Positions 2,240 through 11,160 of a stretch of 64,000 nt of DNA are shown piece by piece (within the stretch, counting starts at the first letter, position 1; every line of letters begins with the position of its first letter). The translations under genes and the position numbers were made by a program. Source of the stretch: Bacillaceae bacterium IKA-2 (lineage in GTDB: Bacteria; Bacillota; Bacilli; Bacillales; Anaerobacillaceae). Location of the stretch: NCBI GenBank assembly GCA_031761875.1, contig CP134492.1, forward strand, positions 1,736,001-1,800,000. Reading direction: 5' to 3'. The notes below the pieces were generated by a model. The model made no database searches, was not told the origin of the DNA, and worked only from the letters and a program-made list of their open reading frames with translations.

Positions 2240-2794
2240 CCTGACCCCCCATAAATTAAACTGTACCCCTACCCTAAATTCAATTTAACTTGGTTACTCT
2301 CTATAAGAAACACGAATCGACAAATAATTAACGAAATATTTTGTTAATTATACAATTTTTGAGTCAATATATCTACTTTTTTGCATTAGTGGACTCAATA
2401 AAAAACGAGGATATGGAATTAGTACATATTATTGTATAAAAAAGTAATTTTTTGAAGTTTAAAAAATCACTTTGATGCCCTGAAGTCGGATCGTTTGGAA
2501 TGCTAACTTTTCGCTTTCTGCACAAGCTGCAGTGAAAATTACTGAGAAGGCTACTGATTTCAAAACACTTTATCATTCAGGCTGGTATCGATATCCGATT
2601 CACTTACCTTTGGGACAAGGTGCCTGTCCCCATGTGGTCTCCCCATGTGGTCATGGCTTAATCTAATTCGTTGTATACCCCCCTGTGTAATTGTATAATA
2701 AGAATTACATTGAAACATTAAATCTACTTGAGTGCAATTATTGTATAGAGAATAGAGTAGTTGCTTTGATAACAATTGGGAAGGGGAATAAGTG
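2240..2794. other. Intergenic region without a recognised gene
   Basis: AT-rich spacer between the divergent PAS-GGDEF and MFS genes. It holds an AT-rich inverted repeat around 2439-2476 (AAGTAATTTTTT against AAAAAATCACTT), a 7-bp inverted repeat TTGAGTC/GACTCAA at about 2357-2397, and the repeat listed at 2612. Open frames here on the minus strand lack family resemblance and convincing ribosome binding sites. Confidence 0.5.
2612..2653. repeat. GTGCCTGTCCCC-type intergenic repeat
   Basis: Contains GGGACAAGGTGCCTGTCCC (a near-palindrome) followed by two direct copies of CCCCATGTGGTC. The core AAGGTGCCTGTCCCC plus TGTGGTC recurs at 11189-11225, and a related GTGCCTG-CCC hairpin sits at 30091-30142. 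All three are intergenic. Confidence 0.6.
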
Positions 2795-4097
2795 ATGTCG
2801 CGTAAAGCTGATGATTCAAAAGCTTTAGAAAATTCTTTGGTACAAAGTTACATCGCTTCTCCAGAAAAGCAACGACAGCTATATCGTCGAACATTGATTA
2901 TTGTTGTCATTTCACAAATTTTCGGCGGCGCCGGTCTAGCAGCAGGGATAACTGTTGGGGCACTGCTTGCACAAGACATGCTAGCGACAGATAGTTTTGC
3001 GGGAGTTCCAGCTGCTTTGTTCACTTTGGGTTCTGCTGGGGCAGCGCTAATTGTTGGACAACTCTCGCAACGTTTTGGACGCCGTTGGGGACTTGCTACG
3101 GGTTTCTTGGCTGGCGGTATTGGTGCGATTGGAATTGTGATTTCAGCAGTATTTAATAATATTCCACTTTTTTTTGCTTCACTCATAATCTATGGTGCCG
3201 GAACAGCAACTAACCTACTAGCGCGCTATGCTGGTACCGATTTAGCAAATTCGAAACAGCGTGCTACAGCAATTAGTATTGCATTGGTATCAACCACATT
3301 CGGAGCTGTTGCGGGGCCAAACTTGGTTGGTGTAATGGGGCGGTTTGCTACATCAATCGGTGTTCCAACTCTTGCTGGTCCATTCATTCTAGCAGGAGCA
3401 GCCTACATCCTTGCCGGTTTGGTAATCTTAGCTTTACTTCGACCAGACCCACTAGTCATTGCAAAAGCGATTGCTGATGCTCAGAAAAAAGATGAGGTTA
3501 ATCTTTCAGAAACAAAATCAACTACCTTATCAATTAACAAACATGGGATCATAGTTGGAACCACAATAATGGTCTTAACCCAAATTGTCATGATTGCAAT
3601 TATGACAATGACACCAATTCATATGGGACGCCATGGTTTTAGCTTAGATGAGATAGGACTCGTAATTGGCATCCATATTGGTGCAATGTTTCTACCGTCT
3701 CTGGTAACTGGTGTTCTCGTAGATAAAATTGGACGTACGACAATGGCAATTGCTGGTAGTGTTACTCTCCTTGCTGCTGGTGTTCTGGGTGCTATAGCAC
3801 CTACTGATTCCCTTGTGGCACTCATTATTGCACTAGCTTTACTAGGACTCGGCTGGAACTTTGGTTTAATTAGTGGAACAGCACTGATTGTCGATTCAAC
3901 ACAGCCATCCACTCGTGCAAAGACGCAAGGATCTGTAGATGTCTTTATAGCTTTGGGTGGGGCAATTGGGAGGGCTTTCCGGGATCGTTTTAGCACAATT
4001 GGGTTACGCGACACTCTCGCTTGCTGGAGGTGTCATTTCACTATTGCTTATTCCAGTCGTTATTTGGTTCCGTCGTAATCAAAAACCTGTCATTTAA
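2795..4097 (+). pseudogene. MFS (DHA1-like) transporter, frameshifted at the C-terminus
   Basis: A major facilitator superfamily transporter with many hydrophobic segments and the loop 2-3 motif GQLSQRFGRRWG at about residues 88-99, as in drug:H+ antiporters. ATG 2795 is preferred because AAGGGG lies 8 nt upstream. The reading frame ends at 4078 with a non-hydrophobic tail (GRAFRDRF onward). Shifting by one base after GGAI restores a final membrane helix (SLAGGVISLLLIPVV) and a basic tail ending at TAA 4095-4097. The lesion is one extra G in the GGG at 3968-3970. The encoded product would lose its last transmembrane segment, so it is probably inactive unless this is a sequencing error. Confidence 0.8.
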
Positions 4098-6189: not shown

Positions 6190-7083
6190 TTAATCTAAGA
6201 TGTCTTCTAGTGAATGAGCGACTTGGATAAATTGGAGCTTTGTGTCACTCGGAATATGAGCAACCCCCGAACCACCTAAATAGAATTTGGTCTGACTCTT
6301 TGAGGCAAATTGGTCTAATTTACTCAGTACTAGAGGGTTTTTTTCAAAAGGGAAGCTGGTAATGATAGAAAGCATAACTTTCTCTGGTTTTAATTTCTTA
6401 ATCATAGCTTCAATCGCCCCTGGTGCCGGAGAAGCTCCTAACAAAATTGTATTCCATCCTTTCAACATGGTTTGCAGAAGATTGATGAGGAGAGGTATAT
6501 CGTGTTGTTCATAAGGGAGGCAAGCTCCAAGTAGAGTTGGTGCCTGACTTTTGACGGGAAAATTTCTCCGTAATTGAACAAGATAATCTCTTACAACAAG
6601 GCTTGATAATGACTCTTGATATTCTCCCCACTCGCCTCTTTCCCAGCGGCCGCCAACCTCTGTGAGAAAAGGTAAAACAACATATTGAAGAAAATTGGCT
6701 AAGCCATTTTGATAATAGGCATCCTGTAATATCATATTCATCCCAAGATCATTGCACTCTGTTCCTTCACGCAATAGATTTAAGACAATCTCATTTCTTA
6801 TTTGTGGTTTTTTGACTGGTCGTATTTTAGTTGGGATTTGGATGTCTTTATTAAGTTCAGTTTTTTCAACAAGACTAGCTGCACGTTTAATCGAATGACC
6901 TTCTTCGACCAAGTACTTGGTATTGAGTAAGGTTTTTATATCATTTTCACTATAACATCGATATCCATTGTCTAACCTTATAGGTTTGACAAGTTGATAA
7001 CGTTCTTCCCACTTCCGGATCAACTGTTTGGAGAGTCCAGTTAGTTGTGAGGCTTGTTTTATTGAGTAAGAATGTTGATCCAA
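6190..7083 (-). CDS. MerR-family regulator with B12-binding-like domain (CarH/LitR type)
   Basis: A 297-residue regulator: MerR winged helix-turn-helix (residues 5-72), a helical lid-like region (about 95-170), then a cobalamin-binding-like Rossmann domain (about 180-297). CarH/LitR proteins use adenosylcobalamin to hold a repressor tetramer that light breaks apart. Here E192-x-H194, including the axial histidine, is kept, but the glycine of ExHxxG is proline (P197) and the lid histidine position appears to be serine (GEYQESLSS). LGGSGV near 269 matches the nucleotide-loop glycines. Binding of B12 is therefore uncertain. TTG start behind GGGACGGGAAG. It is divergent from the FAD/CFA cluster, its likely target. 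Confidence 0.82.
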   Translation of the reverse strand: MDQHSYSIKQASQLTGLSKQLIRKWEERYQLVKPIRLDNGYRCYSENDIKTLLNTKYLVEEGHSIKRAASLVEKTELNKDIQIPTKIRPVKKPQIRNEIVLNLLREGTECNDLGMNMILQDAYYQNGLANFLQYVVLPFLTEVGGRWERGEWGEYQESLSSLVVRDYLVQLRRNFPVKSQAPTLLGACLPYEQHDIPLLINLLQTMLKGWNTILLGASPAPGAIEAMIKKLKPEKVMLSIITSFPFEKNPLVLSKLDQFASKSQTKFYLGGSGVAHIPSDTKLQFIQVAHSLEDILD

Positions 7084-7122: not shown

Positions 7123-7223
7123 TTATACATATCATCTCAAATATATTATAGCAAATAATAGAAAATATAGAAACCCTAAACATTATACAAACGTTTGACA
7201 AAATAAAGAAAATTTGATATAAA
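7123..7223 (+). promoter_or_regulatory. Sigma-A promoter of the FAD/CFA cluster with candidate operators
   Basis: TTGACA at 7195-7200 and TATAAA at 7218-7223 are separated by exactly 17 nt and point toward the FAD protein gene. Just upstream is TTATACA at 7183-7189, repeated at 7123-7129 near the MerR gene start, and the palindrome CAAACGTTTG overlaps the -35. These are plausible binding sites for the divergent MerR-type regulator; that part is inference. Confidence 0.6.
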
Positions 7224-7333: not shown

Positions 7334-8605
7334 ATGAAAAACCAACAAGGTAAACGACGAATTGCAGTCATAGGAGCAGGGGTAGCTGGTATCGTTGCGT
7401 CCTATATTTTACAACGTAAATATGATGTGTCGCTGTTTGAAAAAAATCATTATCTGGGAGGGCATACGAACACTGTCGTTATCGAAGCTGGGCCTGACAA
7501 AGGCTTGCCAGTCGATACAGGTTTTATCGTACTTAATGACAAAACATATCCATTGTTCAACCAGTTTTTGAATCAGCTGAATGTTAAAACGAGGACCAGC
7601 GATATGTCTTTCAGCTATTATGATCAGCGAGATCAATTTCAATTTGCTGGCACAAATTTGAATGGTCTTTTTGCTCAAAGAAAACATTTTTTTAGTCCAT
7701 CATTCTATCAATTACTCGCAGGAATTATAAAATTTAGCAAACACGCATTGAATGATTTGGAGAATAATAGATTTAATGGGGAGACCTTAGGTCAGTACAT
7801 CGAACGAATAAAAATACCAGATATAAGCACACAGCGATACTTGATACCGATGGGCGGAGCGATATGGTCAGCCTCGGAAAAAGACATATTGGATTATCCA
7901 GCAGAAAGTTTTGTCCGTTTTTTTAAGAATCATGGCTTGTTGTCACTTAAGGATATACCGGAATGGAAGACGGTTGTAGGTGGAAGTCACTCCTACGTCA
8001 AAGCCTTTGAAGAACAATTCAGCGGACAAATTCATTTAAATGCTGAAATTGATTTTGTTCGGAGAGAGGATGAACAGATTATCCTACGTATGTCTGATGG
8101 AACTGAACAGTGTTACGATGACGTTGTTTTGGCAACGCATGCCGATGAAAGTTTGCGCTTGCTTTTTGATCCTACAGATGAAGAAAAAAAGCGCCTAGGA
8201 GCTTGGAGCTATTCAAAAAACCATACTATTCTGCATACAGATACCTCTGTATTGCCAAAATTGAAGCGAGCGTGGGCGTCATGGAATTACATTCGTCACG
8301 ATGATCAAGGGCAGTCTGGTTCTGTAACGTACCATATGAATCGGTTGCAGGGGCTAAATACGAAACAAGACTATTGTGTCACTTTAAATGGTAGTCAACT
8401 GATTTCCCCAGACAAAATAATTAAGGAAATGATTTATACGCACCCTATTTTTACAAATGAGTCATTGAATTCACAGGCGGGTTTACCACACTTAAATGGT
8501 AAAAATAATACGTATTTTTGCGGAAGTTATTTTGGTTACGGTTTTCATGAAGATGCAGTGAAATCTGCTGTCGATGTAGCGAGGAAAATGGGTTTGAGTC
8601 TATGA
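7334..8605 (+). CDS. FAD-dependent amine-oxidase-like protein
   Basis: A 423-residue NAD(P)/FAD-binding protein. The N-terminal dinucleotide-binding motif IAVIGAGVAGIVASYIL (residues 10-26) is followed by the FAD ribose-binding FEKNHYLGGHTNT segment, typical of the flavin amine oxidase / protoporphyrinogen oxidase fold. In many bacteria this gene sits beside DUF1365, cyclopropane-fatty-acid synthase and DUF2177 genes, exactly as here, and the set is linked to light or singlet-oxygen responses and unusual lipids. ATG 7334 follows GGGAG. It overlaps the next gene by 4 bp (ATGA), indicating translational coupling. The chemical reaction is not established; desaturation or oxidation of a membrane acyl chain is a reasonable guess. 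Confidence 0.85.
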   Translation: MKNQQGKRRIAVIGAGVAGIVASYILQRKYDVSLFEKNHYLGGHTNTVVIEAGPDKGLPVDTGFIVLNDKTYPLFNQFLNQLNVKTRTSDMSFSYYDQRDQFQFAGTNLNGLFAQRKHFFSPSFYQLLAGIIKFSKHALNDLENNRFNGETLGQYIERIKIPDISTQRYLIPMGGAIWSASEKDILDYPAESFVRFFKNHGLLSLKDIPEWKTVVGGSHSYVKAFEEQFSGQIHLNAEIDFVRREDEQIILRMSDGTEQCYDDVVLATHADESLRLLFDPTDEEKKRLGAWSYSKNHTILHTDTSVLPKLKRAWASWNYIRHDDQGQSGSVTYHMNRLQGLNTKQDYCVTLNGSQLISPDKIIKEMIYTHPIFTNESLNSQAGLPHLNGKNNTYFCGSYFGYGFHEDAVKSAVDVARKMGLSL

Positions 8606-10635
8606 AAACAAAACTTTACGCTGGAGAAATGATGCATAAACGGATACAGCCTGTTGAACACAAATTTAACTATCCTATTTATTTTATGTCGATAGATCTA
8701 GATGAATTAGCTCAACAACAAGCATTTTTCAGCTACAACAAATTTAATATCCTATCTATTTACGATCGAGATTATTTACGGGGTCAAGGGACAATCAAGG
8801 AAAAACTGCAACACAGCTTACGAGTGGCTAATAAACCATACGTTGAAACAATATCAAAGGTTGAATTACTTACCATGCCCCGTTATTTAAATTATGTCTT
8901 TAATCCCGTTAGCTTTTTCTATTGCTATGACACTAACAAACAACTAGTTTGTGTAGTGGTTGAAGTGAGCAATACTTTCGGGGAAAAACATCTTTATTTC
9001 TTGGATAATGACAATCAGCGCTTACAAGCTACTCAACCGCAGCTGAAGAATAAGGAAATTTACGATTTACCAATTATGCAATTTCAAGAAAATAAAAATT
9101 TTCATGTTTCCCCCTTTAATAATCTCGACGGAGTATACCACTTTAAGCTCACCCAGTTAACTAATAAGGTGAGCATTGATATCGATTTGCATCAGCAAGA
9201 TAAACTCAAATTGGCAACACGTTTACAAGTAAATGCGGTTCCGTTAACAAAATTGACTTTACTAGCTCATCTACTAAAGTTTCCTTTTACAGCATCTATT
9301 GCTATGCCGCGTATTTTGTTTCAGGCGGCTCAACTATTATACCGAAAAGGAGTGAAGGTACAAATGAAACCAAGATTATCTAGCCCAATGACTTTTTCTA
9401 CCGTAAAGCCTTCTGTACTTGTGTCTTTACGTATGCGTTTGGTTTTTAAATATCTGAGTAACTTGAAAATAGGTGCGATTGTAGTATCGTTACCTGACTG
9501 GAGCGAAGAAGTATTTGGCGATGTTGACGCCAAATTTAAAGTAAAAATTGAAATTCATGATTACAACTTTTTTTCTAATGTGATGAAAAATGGCGATATT
9601 GGCCTTGGAGAATCTTACATGAAAGGCCATTGGTCTTGTTCTGATTTGACGAGTTTATTTCGTTTGTTTCTAGTCAATCGGGACCATTTAAATCACACCT
9701 CGGTTGGAAGGAATTGGATCAATAATAAACTGATTCGTATTAAACATACGCTTCGCCGCAACAGCTTATCTGGAAGCAGTAAAAATATTCGTGCACATTA
9801 TGATTTAAACAATCAATTTTTTGAAGCGTTTTTGGATGATAGTATGACGTATTCTTCAGGTATCTATGATCACCCAAATCAAACACTAGAACAGGCTCAA
9901 GTAAACAAATTGCAAGCGATCATTCAAAAGGCACAAATCGGTCCCGAAGATCACGTTTTGGAAATAGGTTCAGGTTGGGGCAGCTTTGCTTTGGAAGCTG
10001 TGAAAACAACTGGCTGTCGAGTGACCTCTGTAACATTGTCTGAAGAGCAATTGAAATATGCAAGAGAAAAAGTTGAAAAGGAAGGCTTGTCAGATCGTAT
10101 TGATTTTCAACTGTGTGATTATCGAAACATAACGGGGTCCTTTGATAAAATTGTTTCGATTGAAATGTTTGAAGCGGTTGGACATGAATATTATGGTGAG
10201 TTTTTTAAGATTTGTGACCGGCTTTTGAAACCAAATGGACTTTTTGTTATGCAGGTGATAACGATCGCAGACCAGTATTACGAGAATTATCGCCGTTCAA
10301 CGGATTGGATACAAGCTTATATATTTCCAGGTGGAATAGTACCATCGTTGACGGCGATGACAAAAGCGATGACCAAAGATTCGGCGTTGGTCGTTGACGG
10401 CGTAGATAATATCGGGATGGATTATGCGCGAACGTTACAAGCTTGGAAAGCTCGTTTTTTTGAACAAACAGCTGAAATCAAAGCATTAGGTTTTGATGAC
10501 GATTTTTTCCGGATGTGGGAATATTACTTGTGTTATTGCGAAGCAGGCTTTTTAACTCGCCAACTTGGTGTCTATCAGATGGTCATGTCAAGGCCAAATG
10601 AAACAATAGCTAATATAGAACAAAAAGCAAATTGA
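8602..10635 (+). CDS. DUF1365 - cyclopropane-fatty-acyl-phospholipid synthase fusion
   Basis: A 677-residue two-part protein. Residues 1 to about 240 are DUF1365 (MHKRIQPVEHKFNYPIYFM near the start, then RYLNYVFNPVSFFYC). Residues about 285-670 are a CFA-synthase-type methyltransferase with the SAM-binding loop VLEIGSGWGSFALEA (about 450-464) and EMFEAVGHEYYGEFF. Such enzymes transfer a methyl or methylene from S-adenosylmethionine onto unsaturated phospholipid acyl chains at the inner membrane face. In most genomes I know of, the two parts are separate adjacent genes, so the fusion suggests direct functional coupling. It overlaps the FAD gene upstream and is followed by a palindromic repeat and the DUF2177 gene. 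Mono-methylation or furan-type products are possible alternatives to cyclopropane. Confidence 0.9.
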   Translation: MKTKLYAGEMMHKRIQPVEHKFNYPIYFMSIDLDELAQQQAFFSYNKFNILSIYDRDYLRGQGTIKEKLQHSLRVANKPYVETISKVELLTMPRYLNYVFNPVSFFYCYDTNKQLVCVVVEVSNTFGEKHLYFLDNDNQRLQATQPQLKNKEIYDLPIMQFQENKNFHVSPFNNLDGVYHFKLTQLTNKVSIDIDLHQQDKLKLATRLQVNAVPLTKLTLLAHLLKFPFTASIAMPRILFQAAQLLYRKGVKVQMKPRLSSPMTFSTVKPSVLVSLRMRLVFKYLSNLKIGAIVVSLPDWSEEVFGDVDAKFKVKIEIHDYNFFSNVMKNGDIGLGESYMKGHWSCSDLTSLFRLFLVNRDHLNHTSVGRNWINNKLIRIKHTLRRNSLSGSSKNIRAHYDLNNQFFEAFLDDSMTYSSGIYDHPNQTLEQAQVNKLQAIIQKAQIGPEDHVLEIGSGWGSFALEAVKTTGCRVTSVTLSEEQLKYAREKVEKEGLSDRIDFQLCDYRNITGSFDKIVSIEMFEAVGHEYYGEFFKICDRLLKPNGLFVMQVITIADQYYENYRRSTDWIQAYIFPGGIVPSLTAMTKAMTKDSALVVDGVDNIGMDYARTLQAWKARFFEQTAEIKALGFDDDFFRMWEYYLCYCEAGFLTRQLGVYQMVMSRPNETIANIEQKAN

Positions 10636-10722: not shown

Positions 10723-10755
10723 GAAAAACTTTAATTGGAAAAGGGGATTTATGCG

Positions 10756-11160
10756 ATGATGCATTTTATTAAAGTTTACGCTATTGCGATTGTGATATTC
10801 TTTTTGATAGATATGCTTTGGTTAGGTGTAATTGCCAAGGATTTTTATCGGGAGCAACTAGGGACGATGATGAAAACAGAGTTTAATTGGATCGCGGCAT
10901 TTTCATTTTATTTTCTTTTTATTGCTGCACTCGTATTTTTTGTAATCAATCCAGCGTTAGCAAATGAAAGCTGGAGATATGCCTTGTTTGCAGGTGCTTT
11001 TTTTGGGCTAGTTACTTATGCAACCTATGATTTAACAAATTTAGCAACACTGAATAATTGGCCATTGAAGATGACGATAGTAGATTTGATTTGGGGAACG
11101 GTGTTAGGAGGCTCAACATCGACAATCACTTACCTAATCGCTAAAAAGTTTTTTTTTTAA
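10756..11160 (+). CDS. DUF2177 family membrane protein
   Basis: A 134-residue integral membrane protein with four hydrophobic segments. It shows family features FFLIDMLWLGVIAKDFYREQ near the N-terminus and YATYDLTNLATLNNWP in the second half. DUF2177 proteins recur next to DUF1365/CFA genes, which is the arrangement here, and are presumed to take part in the same lipid modification. ATG 10756 is preferred over the TTG at 10735 because AAGGGG lies about 8 nt before it. Biochemical function is unknown. Confidence 0.85.
   Translation: MMHFIKVYAIAIVIFFLIDMLWLGVIAKDFYREQLGTMMKTEFNWIAAFSFYFLFIAALVFFVINPALANESWRYALFAGAFFGLVTYATYDLTNLATLNNWPLKMTIVDLIWGTVLGGSTSTITYLIAKKFFF

Follow-up and report, generated by a model that had tools for sequence, protein, structure and literature searches.

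In the genome of Bacillaceae bacterium IKA-2 a single gene encodes a DUF1365 domain joined to a methyltransferase of the cyclopropane fatty acid synthase (Cfa) family. We read it as a fusion of ufaO and ufaM, the genes for steps 3 and 1 of furan fatty acid synthesis, which is probably translated together with an overlapping ufaD gene for step 2 (probability roughly 0.85, judged from sequence). Furan fatty acids are protective lipids which scavenge damaging forms of oxygen. The gene lies in a stretch of 64,000 nucleotides of contig CP134492.1 (assembly GCA_031761875.1, positions 1,736,001 to 1,800,000, forward strand), referred to as the window, whose own numbering is used below. UfaM of Rhodobacter sphaeroides methylates 18:1 chains to 11Me-12t-18:1, UfaD (RSP1091) then makes 11Me-10t,12t-18:2, and UfaO (RSP1090) converts this diene to the furan acid 9M5-FuFA with oxygen taken from O2, as shown for UfaO by gene deletion, by assay in vitro and by labelling with 18O2 (PMC7380195). 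The assignment of the window genes to such a cassette follows from three likenesses: DUF1365 is the UfaO domain, the flavoprotein encoded before it is UfaD-like and the methyltransferase is UfaM-like.

Structure of the fused gene

The fused gene and its parts are as follows.

8602-10635, forward strand: ufaO-ufaM fusion gene, 677 residues, predicted bifunctional furan fatty acid enzyme (open reading frame, Pfam, AlphaFold2; fusions in other lineages)
8614-9375, forward strand: DUF1365/UfaO domain, residues 5-258, predicted beta-barrel and C-terminal helix (PF07103, E 9.1e-72; structural model)
9376-9426, forward strand: junction, approximately residues 259-275, KPxPxS-type segment, predicted to be ordered (alignment; predicted local distance difference test, pLDDT)
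9427-10632, forward strand: UfaM-type methyltransferase, residues 276-677, with a lipid-binding N-terminal part and a catalytic domain (PF02353; Z 40.6 to 6bqc)

The reading frame is intact from ATG to TGA with no internal stop. It covers positions 1-234 of the 235 in the PF07103 profile, so that DUF1365 is full length, and residues 392-660 match the CMAS family PF02353 (E 6.4e-83). Between the two domains a weak match to DUF7884 (residues 284-343, 5.5e-6, 26.9 bits) just missed the cut-off of 27. AlphaFold2 modelling of the full chain, a structure prediction which the first-pass annotation of the window had proposed, gave a mean pLDDT of 90.4 and a predicted template modelling score (pTM) of 0.82. 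Across the junction (251-290) ten-residue blocks averaged 82-94, and the high pTM suggests a defined arrangement of the two domains. The KPxPxS-type segment is common to most of the 20 fused proteins aligned. The claim that DUF1365 and a CFA-synthase-like protein form one polypeptide was therefore confirmed by the frame, both Pfam domains and a confident fold over the junction. In the host genome, which is one contig, DUF1365 is matched nowhere but in this frame, which also contains the sole strong CMAS match (281 bits); the other six CMAS matches scored 20-34 bits.

The methyltransferase half

The methyltransferase half is complete: phmmer aligned it with the E. coli, Aquifex and Lactobacillus Cfa enzymes from residue 295-321 onward, and the model matched their structures from residues 274-279 almost to the end of the chain. 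The ligands of the catalytic bicarbonate in E. coli Cfa are Glu239, His266 and Tyr317 (PMC11387697). The window protein retains Glu239 and Tyr317 and has Gln in place of His266, so the full set of three ligands is absent. All 125 separate copies and 43 of the 44 fused ones have Gln at this position, the single exception (L205) being a broken frame. His was found in all four aligned Cfa/CmaA chains. Glu239 was conserved in all fused and separate copies, as was Tyr317 in every copy without a gap there. These counts leave out same-genome duplicates, loci lacking both domains and loci whose best methyltransferase scored below 190 bits. In a smaller set, methyltransferases of 150-240 bits had Gln in five of seven cases and His in two, and those below 150 bits had His in 17 of 18 with one gap. 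Cys139 was tried as a diagnostic residue and rejected, because fused copies have C (23), S (15), A (4) or G (2) there and separate copies vary too.

An ordinary cyclopropane fatty acid synthase with DUF1365 as a mere helper, for example in lipid presentation, would account for the best sequence and structure matches, which are true Cfa enzymes, and for the top NCBIfam matches, which are Cfa models. However, the NCBIfam scores of 308 and 307 bits lie far under the respective cut-offs of 600 and 400, His266 is replaced by Gln across nearly the whole DUF1365-linked family, and UfaO has been published as the catalyst of furan formation (PMC7380195). We therefore consider this explanation improbable. 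The CMAS-family half carries the UfaM-type pattern (Gln at Cfa position 266, Glu239 and Tyr317), as defined on copies from operons in the order ufaD, ufaO, ufaM (D-O-M). By this sequence pattern its active site is that of the UfaM-type copies and not that of a cyclopropane synthase, and the name "CFA synthase" given in the first-pass annotation is a misnomer.

A second CMAS methyltransferase, which retains the His, adjoins the cassette in L017 (1604-2662), L018, L020, L024, L031, L033, L035, L040 and L048, and is perhaps a second methylase of the FufM type. A profile search of the host genome found no equally strong second CMAS match.

The DUF1365 half

DUF1365 was named as the domain of UfaO, the O2-dependent furan-forming enzyme, by Lemke (2020), who described the enzyme's cofactor and mechanism as still open (PMC7380195). 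In the window protein DUF1365 is accompanied by a UfaD-like gene with a 4-bp overlap and by the fused UfaM-like part, as expected of UfaO. It is 33% identical to a plasmid-borne copy (L012) from Paracoccaceae with an adjoining ChrR gene, which served as a taxonomic proxy for the tested UfaO. Alignment of 52 DUF1365 copies revealed 12 invariant columns, among them His12, Arg14, Asp57, Thr125, Lys165 and Ser170. A His/carboxylate iron site was not supported, as some copies, such as L016, lack His130 and Glu128.

Modelled alone (m66774fccbb7c), the domain gave a pLDDT of 90.1 and a pTM of 0.88 and consisted mainly of beta strands with a long C-terminal helix (217-248). The closest solved folds were nitrobindins, a designed barrel, the spirocyclase OssO and proteins resembling fatty acid-binding proteins, all with Z of at most 7.1; the best Foldseek E value was 3.3e-3 and these matches may reflect only a shared arrangement. 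They are suggestive, not proof, of a barrel. A profile search of DUF1365 against solved structures returned nothing credible (best E 0.46).

The methyl ester masses reported for the diene (308.2) and the furan (322.2) (PMC7380195) differ by one oxygen gained and two hydrogens lost, so that diene plus O2 giving furan plus water balances and outside electrons are not strictly needed. This agrees with the remark of the Rhodobacter authors that addition of a reductant was unnecessary (PMC7380195). A cofactor-free or a heme route for UfaO is thinkable; the stoichiometry demonstrates neither.

The resemblance of the predicted barrel to fatty acid and heme carriers, the C-terminal helix, which could lie on a membrane, and the lack of an obvious cofactor motif are what would be expected if DUF1365 were a non-catalytic acyl-chain carrier or a membrane anchor for the methyltransferase. 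We consider this improbable as well, since recombinant UfaO produced in a cell-free extract forms the furan with oxygen from O2 (PMC7380195), the 12 invariant columns exceed the needs of a mere anchor, and the barrel matches are weak with no Foldseek E below 0.001. The first-pass annotation had argued from the fusion, as a Rosetta-stone link, that DUF1365 acts on, or holds, the same acyl-chain substrate as the methyltransferase. That inference was broadly right, but the fusion was not needed for it, as the function of UfaO was already published; the published role is that of a catalyst, not a holder, and its target is the product of the methyltransferase two steps on rather than its substrate (PMC7380195).

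Distribution and origin of the fusion

An alignment scan of a genome collection for DUF1365 gave 567 confirmed loci, of which the best 80 were kept as named loci, a set of closest relatives and therefore biased. Among 88 loci examined, 20 carried the fusion: 19 of the 80 named loci and L009, which duplicates L017 from Salisediminibacterium halotolerans (same place and scores). By record titles and tree taxonomy the fused loci were placed in Bacillota, Omnitrophota, Poribacteria, Sumerlaeota, Kiritimatiellota, Lentisphaerota, Verrucomicrobiota, Thermodesulfobacteriota, Myxococcota and Spirochaetota; most come from metagenome bins, whose labels may be wrong. The fusion of S. halotolerans is intact, with 672 residues and 63% identity to the window protein.

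Even samples of genomes, named after the phylum of the locus used as centre, extended the survey of spread which the first-pass annotation had recommended. In Thermodesulfobacteriota DUF1365 was matched 29 times, in 28 of the 375 genomes; 14 of these matches are fused, and in three fused copies (L195, L205, L208) the methyltransferase part is broken. In Verrucomicrobiota in the GTDB sense, which includes Kiritimatiellota, 85 of 367 genomes had a match and 16 of these were fused (10 of 30 loci, four of five fetched afterwards, and L035 and L066); the remaining matches were in frames of less than 560 residues. In Pseudomonadota 153 of 398 genomes had a match (by our reading, with G829, G885 and G1036 lacking a row in the match table). 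No fusion was found there among the matches listed, and none of the six frames of at least 600 residues, all of which were fetched, was fused. This agrees with the earlier statement that the two proteins are usually separate neighbours, as does the position of ufaD close to the DUF1365 start in most unfused loci (below).

Closer to the host, DUF1365 was matched in two of 397 genomes of its GTDB order, both within frames of 681-694 residues and the second with the place and scores of S. halotolerans, in one of 398 genomes of its class above the cut-off, namely the host alone, and in one of seven genomes of its genus. By these counts the fusion is sporadic in the host genus and was probably acquired horizontally. 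A comparison of flanks across the genus for an empty site was uninformative, the downstream phosphorylase gene not being conserved at the DNA level. Two candidates from the survey were discarded: a third domain in a 1100-residue frame (L025), whose tail crosses an N gap, and a DUF1365 match in G404, which fell below the cut-off and had no matching reading frame of at least 90 residues on its strand.

A tree with 86 rows of joined O and M domains, 20 of them from fused genes (short search, with support from the Shimodaira-Hasegawa-like approximate likelihood ratio test only), has three changes between the fused and the separate state against a shuffled mean of 18.1. A FastTree analysis of 143 rows, 45 of them fused, gave two changes against a shuffled mean of 38, with four separate rows (L024, L031, L167, L172) nested in the fused group. 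Rooting was by midpoint and the counts cannot separate gain from loss; FastTree also warned of two long separate rows, L014 and L040, being joined, and L040 falls inside the fused group in the 86-row tree. The trees are compatible with a single fusion followed by one or two splits; read most simply, the fusion arose once, spread widely by transfer and was later split once. Little change would be needed for such a fusion since in some separate operons (e.g. L016) the end of the one gene and the start of the other share a few bases.

That overlap, which a single indel could bridge, would also favour a frame fused by faulty assembly or sequencing, or a gene in decay, but this can be dismissed given 45 fused rows in many lineages forming one group with one re-split, the 63% identical intact fusion in another genus, the retained active-site residues and the confident fold across the junction. 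The frameshift or misassembly that had been named as the way to overturn the annotation was thus looked for in relatives and rejected, as the fusion recurs intact in S. halotolerans and many other lineages. The fusion is real and widely spread, and probably old.

Seven fused copies (L021, L026, L032, L055, L041, L044 and L049) come from metagenome bins whose names are those of sulfate-reducer or Kiritimatiellae lineages. These groups are usually considered anaerobic.

Neighbouring genes and control

The features surrounding the fused gene are listed below.

7334-8605, forward strand: UfaD-like flavin adenine dinucleotide (FAD) oxidoreductase, 423 residues (PF01593, E 1e-19; same neighbour in relatives), with an ATGA 4-bp overlap with the fusion gene
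6190-7083, reverse strand: divergent CarH/LitR-like MerR regulator with a B12-binding-like domain (NF052513 CarH, E 3.7e-25, below cut-off; TtCarH 5c8d, E 3.6e-21)
7188-7223, forward strand: predicted promoter TTGACA-17-TATAAA (7195-7223) with a palindrome at -35, upstream of ufaD (pattern scan)
10735-11160, forward strand: DUF2177 small membrane protein (PF09945, E 1.4e-47)

The UfaD-like protein is FAD amine-oxidase-like and encoded directly before ufaO, as expected of UfaD. The D-O-M order occurs in relatives as well. The overlap between ufaD and the fused gene is exactly 4 nt in 31 of the 43 fused loci, and among 122 unfused loci that have both genes on the same strand, 109 have ufaD between -40 and +60 nt from the DUF1365 start. 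DUF2177 is an optional companion of the cassette (5 of 20 genomes checked). In L023 (78-1808) DUF2177 and UfaD share a single frame of 576 residues, hinting that DUF2177 belongs to the pathway.

In the alignment of the regulator with TtCarH the Trp, the Glu and the lower-ligand His of the B12 site are kept and the two upper-site His residues are Glu and Ser. As the upper His residues are not retained, light sensing is uncertain. The perfect palindrome CAAACGTTTG (7188-7197) spans the -35 element of the predicted ufaD promoter. Promoter and palindrome each matched once in the window against 0.04 and 0.05 expected, figures which are only a rough guide because the patterns were chosen after inspection of the sequence. 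Together, regulator, promoter and palindrome may form a light or redox switch with altered chemistry. In other loci a gene next to DUF1365 encodes a ChrR anti-sigma factor (L011, L012, L015), an anti-sigma factor (L013) or a MerR protein (L014, L016).

A single fatty acid desaturase gene (PF00487, 131.5 bits) is present in the host, which may therefore have unsaturated chains. Further upstream in the window (2792-4078, forward strand) a major facilitator superfamily transporter frame is possibly frameshifted, as its last approximately 30 residues look out of frame.

Proposed mechanism and significance

Sequence analysis establishes the fused gene, how widely it occurs, the gene order and the active-site pattern. 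The chemistry was demonstrated by others in Rhodobacter and Rhodopseudomonas; the activity of the window protein, the chain it acts on and the reason for the fusion are our inference. The UfaM half would methylate a cis-unsaturated acyl chain in a membrane phospholipid, shifting the double bond of that chain, UfaD would form the conjugated methyl-diene with O2 as the likely electron acceptor, and the UfaO half would close the furan ring with one oxygen atom from O2, the chain probably lying inside the barrel. Joining the outer two enzymes probably keeps them at a fixed ratio on the same membrane patch, and UfaO may thereby draw on the lipid-binding N-terminal part of UfaM. A CarH/LitR-type regulator that responds to light or photo-oxidative stress probably controls the operon.

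Several points weigh against the ufaO-ufaM assignment. Orthology to the tested UfaM, UfaD and UfaO is judged from domains, the order of the genes and the active-site pattern. The known substrate is cis-vaccenate, and the host desaturase may place its double bond at another position. A simple hand-over between O and M is not expected, as they are steps 3 and 1. One lineage within the fused group is again two genes, so the fusion is dispensable, and the several fused copies in bins named after usually anaerobic groups are odd for a step that requires O2.

A more specific version of the ufaO-ufaM assignment, which is possible rather than probable, takes the fusion for a furan fatty acid synthase module, with DUF1365 as an O2-activating calycin-like barrel, working either with a heme at His12, the one invariant His, or free of cofactor, and the Gln diverting the carbocation to proton loss. 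Proton loss from the chain would give a methyl branch and a shifted double bond instead of ring closure. The calycin-like barrel is not known for O2-activating chemistry.

The function of DUF1365 in the furan pathway is already published; of the UfaO-UfaM fusion no description was found in the excerpted literature on DUF1365 and furan fatty acid enzymes. By sequence, the pathway is extended to Bacillota and further phyla, with a one-gene form for steps 1 and 3. Fusion to a Cfa-like partner of well-known structure offers a new protein to purify and crystallise for the cofactor and mechanism of UfaO, and the predicted barrel bears on the cofactor question. Gln for His provides a simple sequence test separating UfaM-type enzymes from the Cfa names given in annotation, and if the switch is causal a single residue separates ring closure from methyl branching.

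Comparison with known systems

E. coli Cfa (6bqc) shares the fold and the N-terminal lipid-binding part with the methyltransferase half (Z 40.6, 2.3 Å over 345 residues) but has the His266 bicarbonate ligand where the window protein has Gln, and only the latter is fused to DUF1365. The pathway of R. sphaeroides and R. palustris comprises the same three protein types, DUF1365 being the UfaO domain, and the R. palustris locus numbers (RPA2571, RPA2570 and RPA2569 for ufaD, ufaO and ufaM) imply the same D-O-M order as in the window (PMC7380195). Here, in contrast, UfaO and UfaM form one polypeptide in a Bacillota host, and the neighbouring regulator is MerR/B12-like rather than ChrR/sigma-E (PMC7380195).

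In Halomonas the three genes are consecutive, and ufaM expressed in E. coli yields 11-methyloctadec-12-enoate (PMC12089945). A gene set of cfa, an FAD oxidoreductase and DUF1365 responds to riboflavin in Aeromonas salmonicida (PMC10012899), and the Chlamydomonas genes that respond to singlet oxygen include CFA1, one with DUF1365 and one with DUF2177 (PMC4067076). LitR proteins control light-induced ufaM in Pseudomonas, where the clusters resemble the window in having ufaM and an FAD oxidoreductase gene under a CarH/LitR-family regulator; they differ in their separate genes, a photolyase and a class II LitR without the full B12-binding region (PMC9758184). Furan-pathway enzymes are also joined in one polypeptide in Arabidopsis, but there AtUFAMD1 (AT3G23510) matches UfaM plus UfaD with AtUFAO1 separate, whereas the separate protein in the window is UfaD, with UfaO joined to UfaM (PMC10940516).

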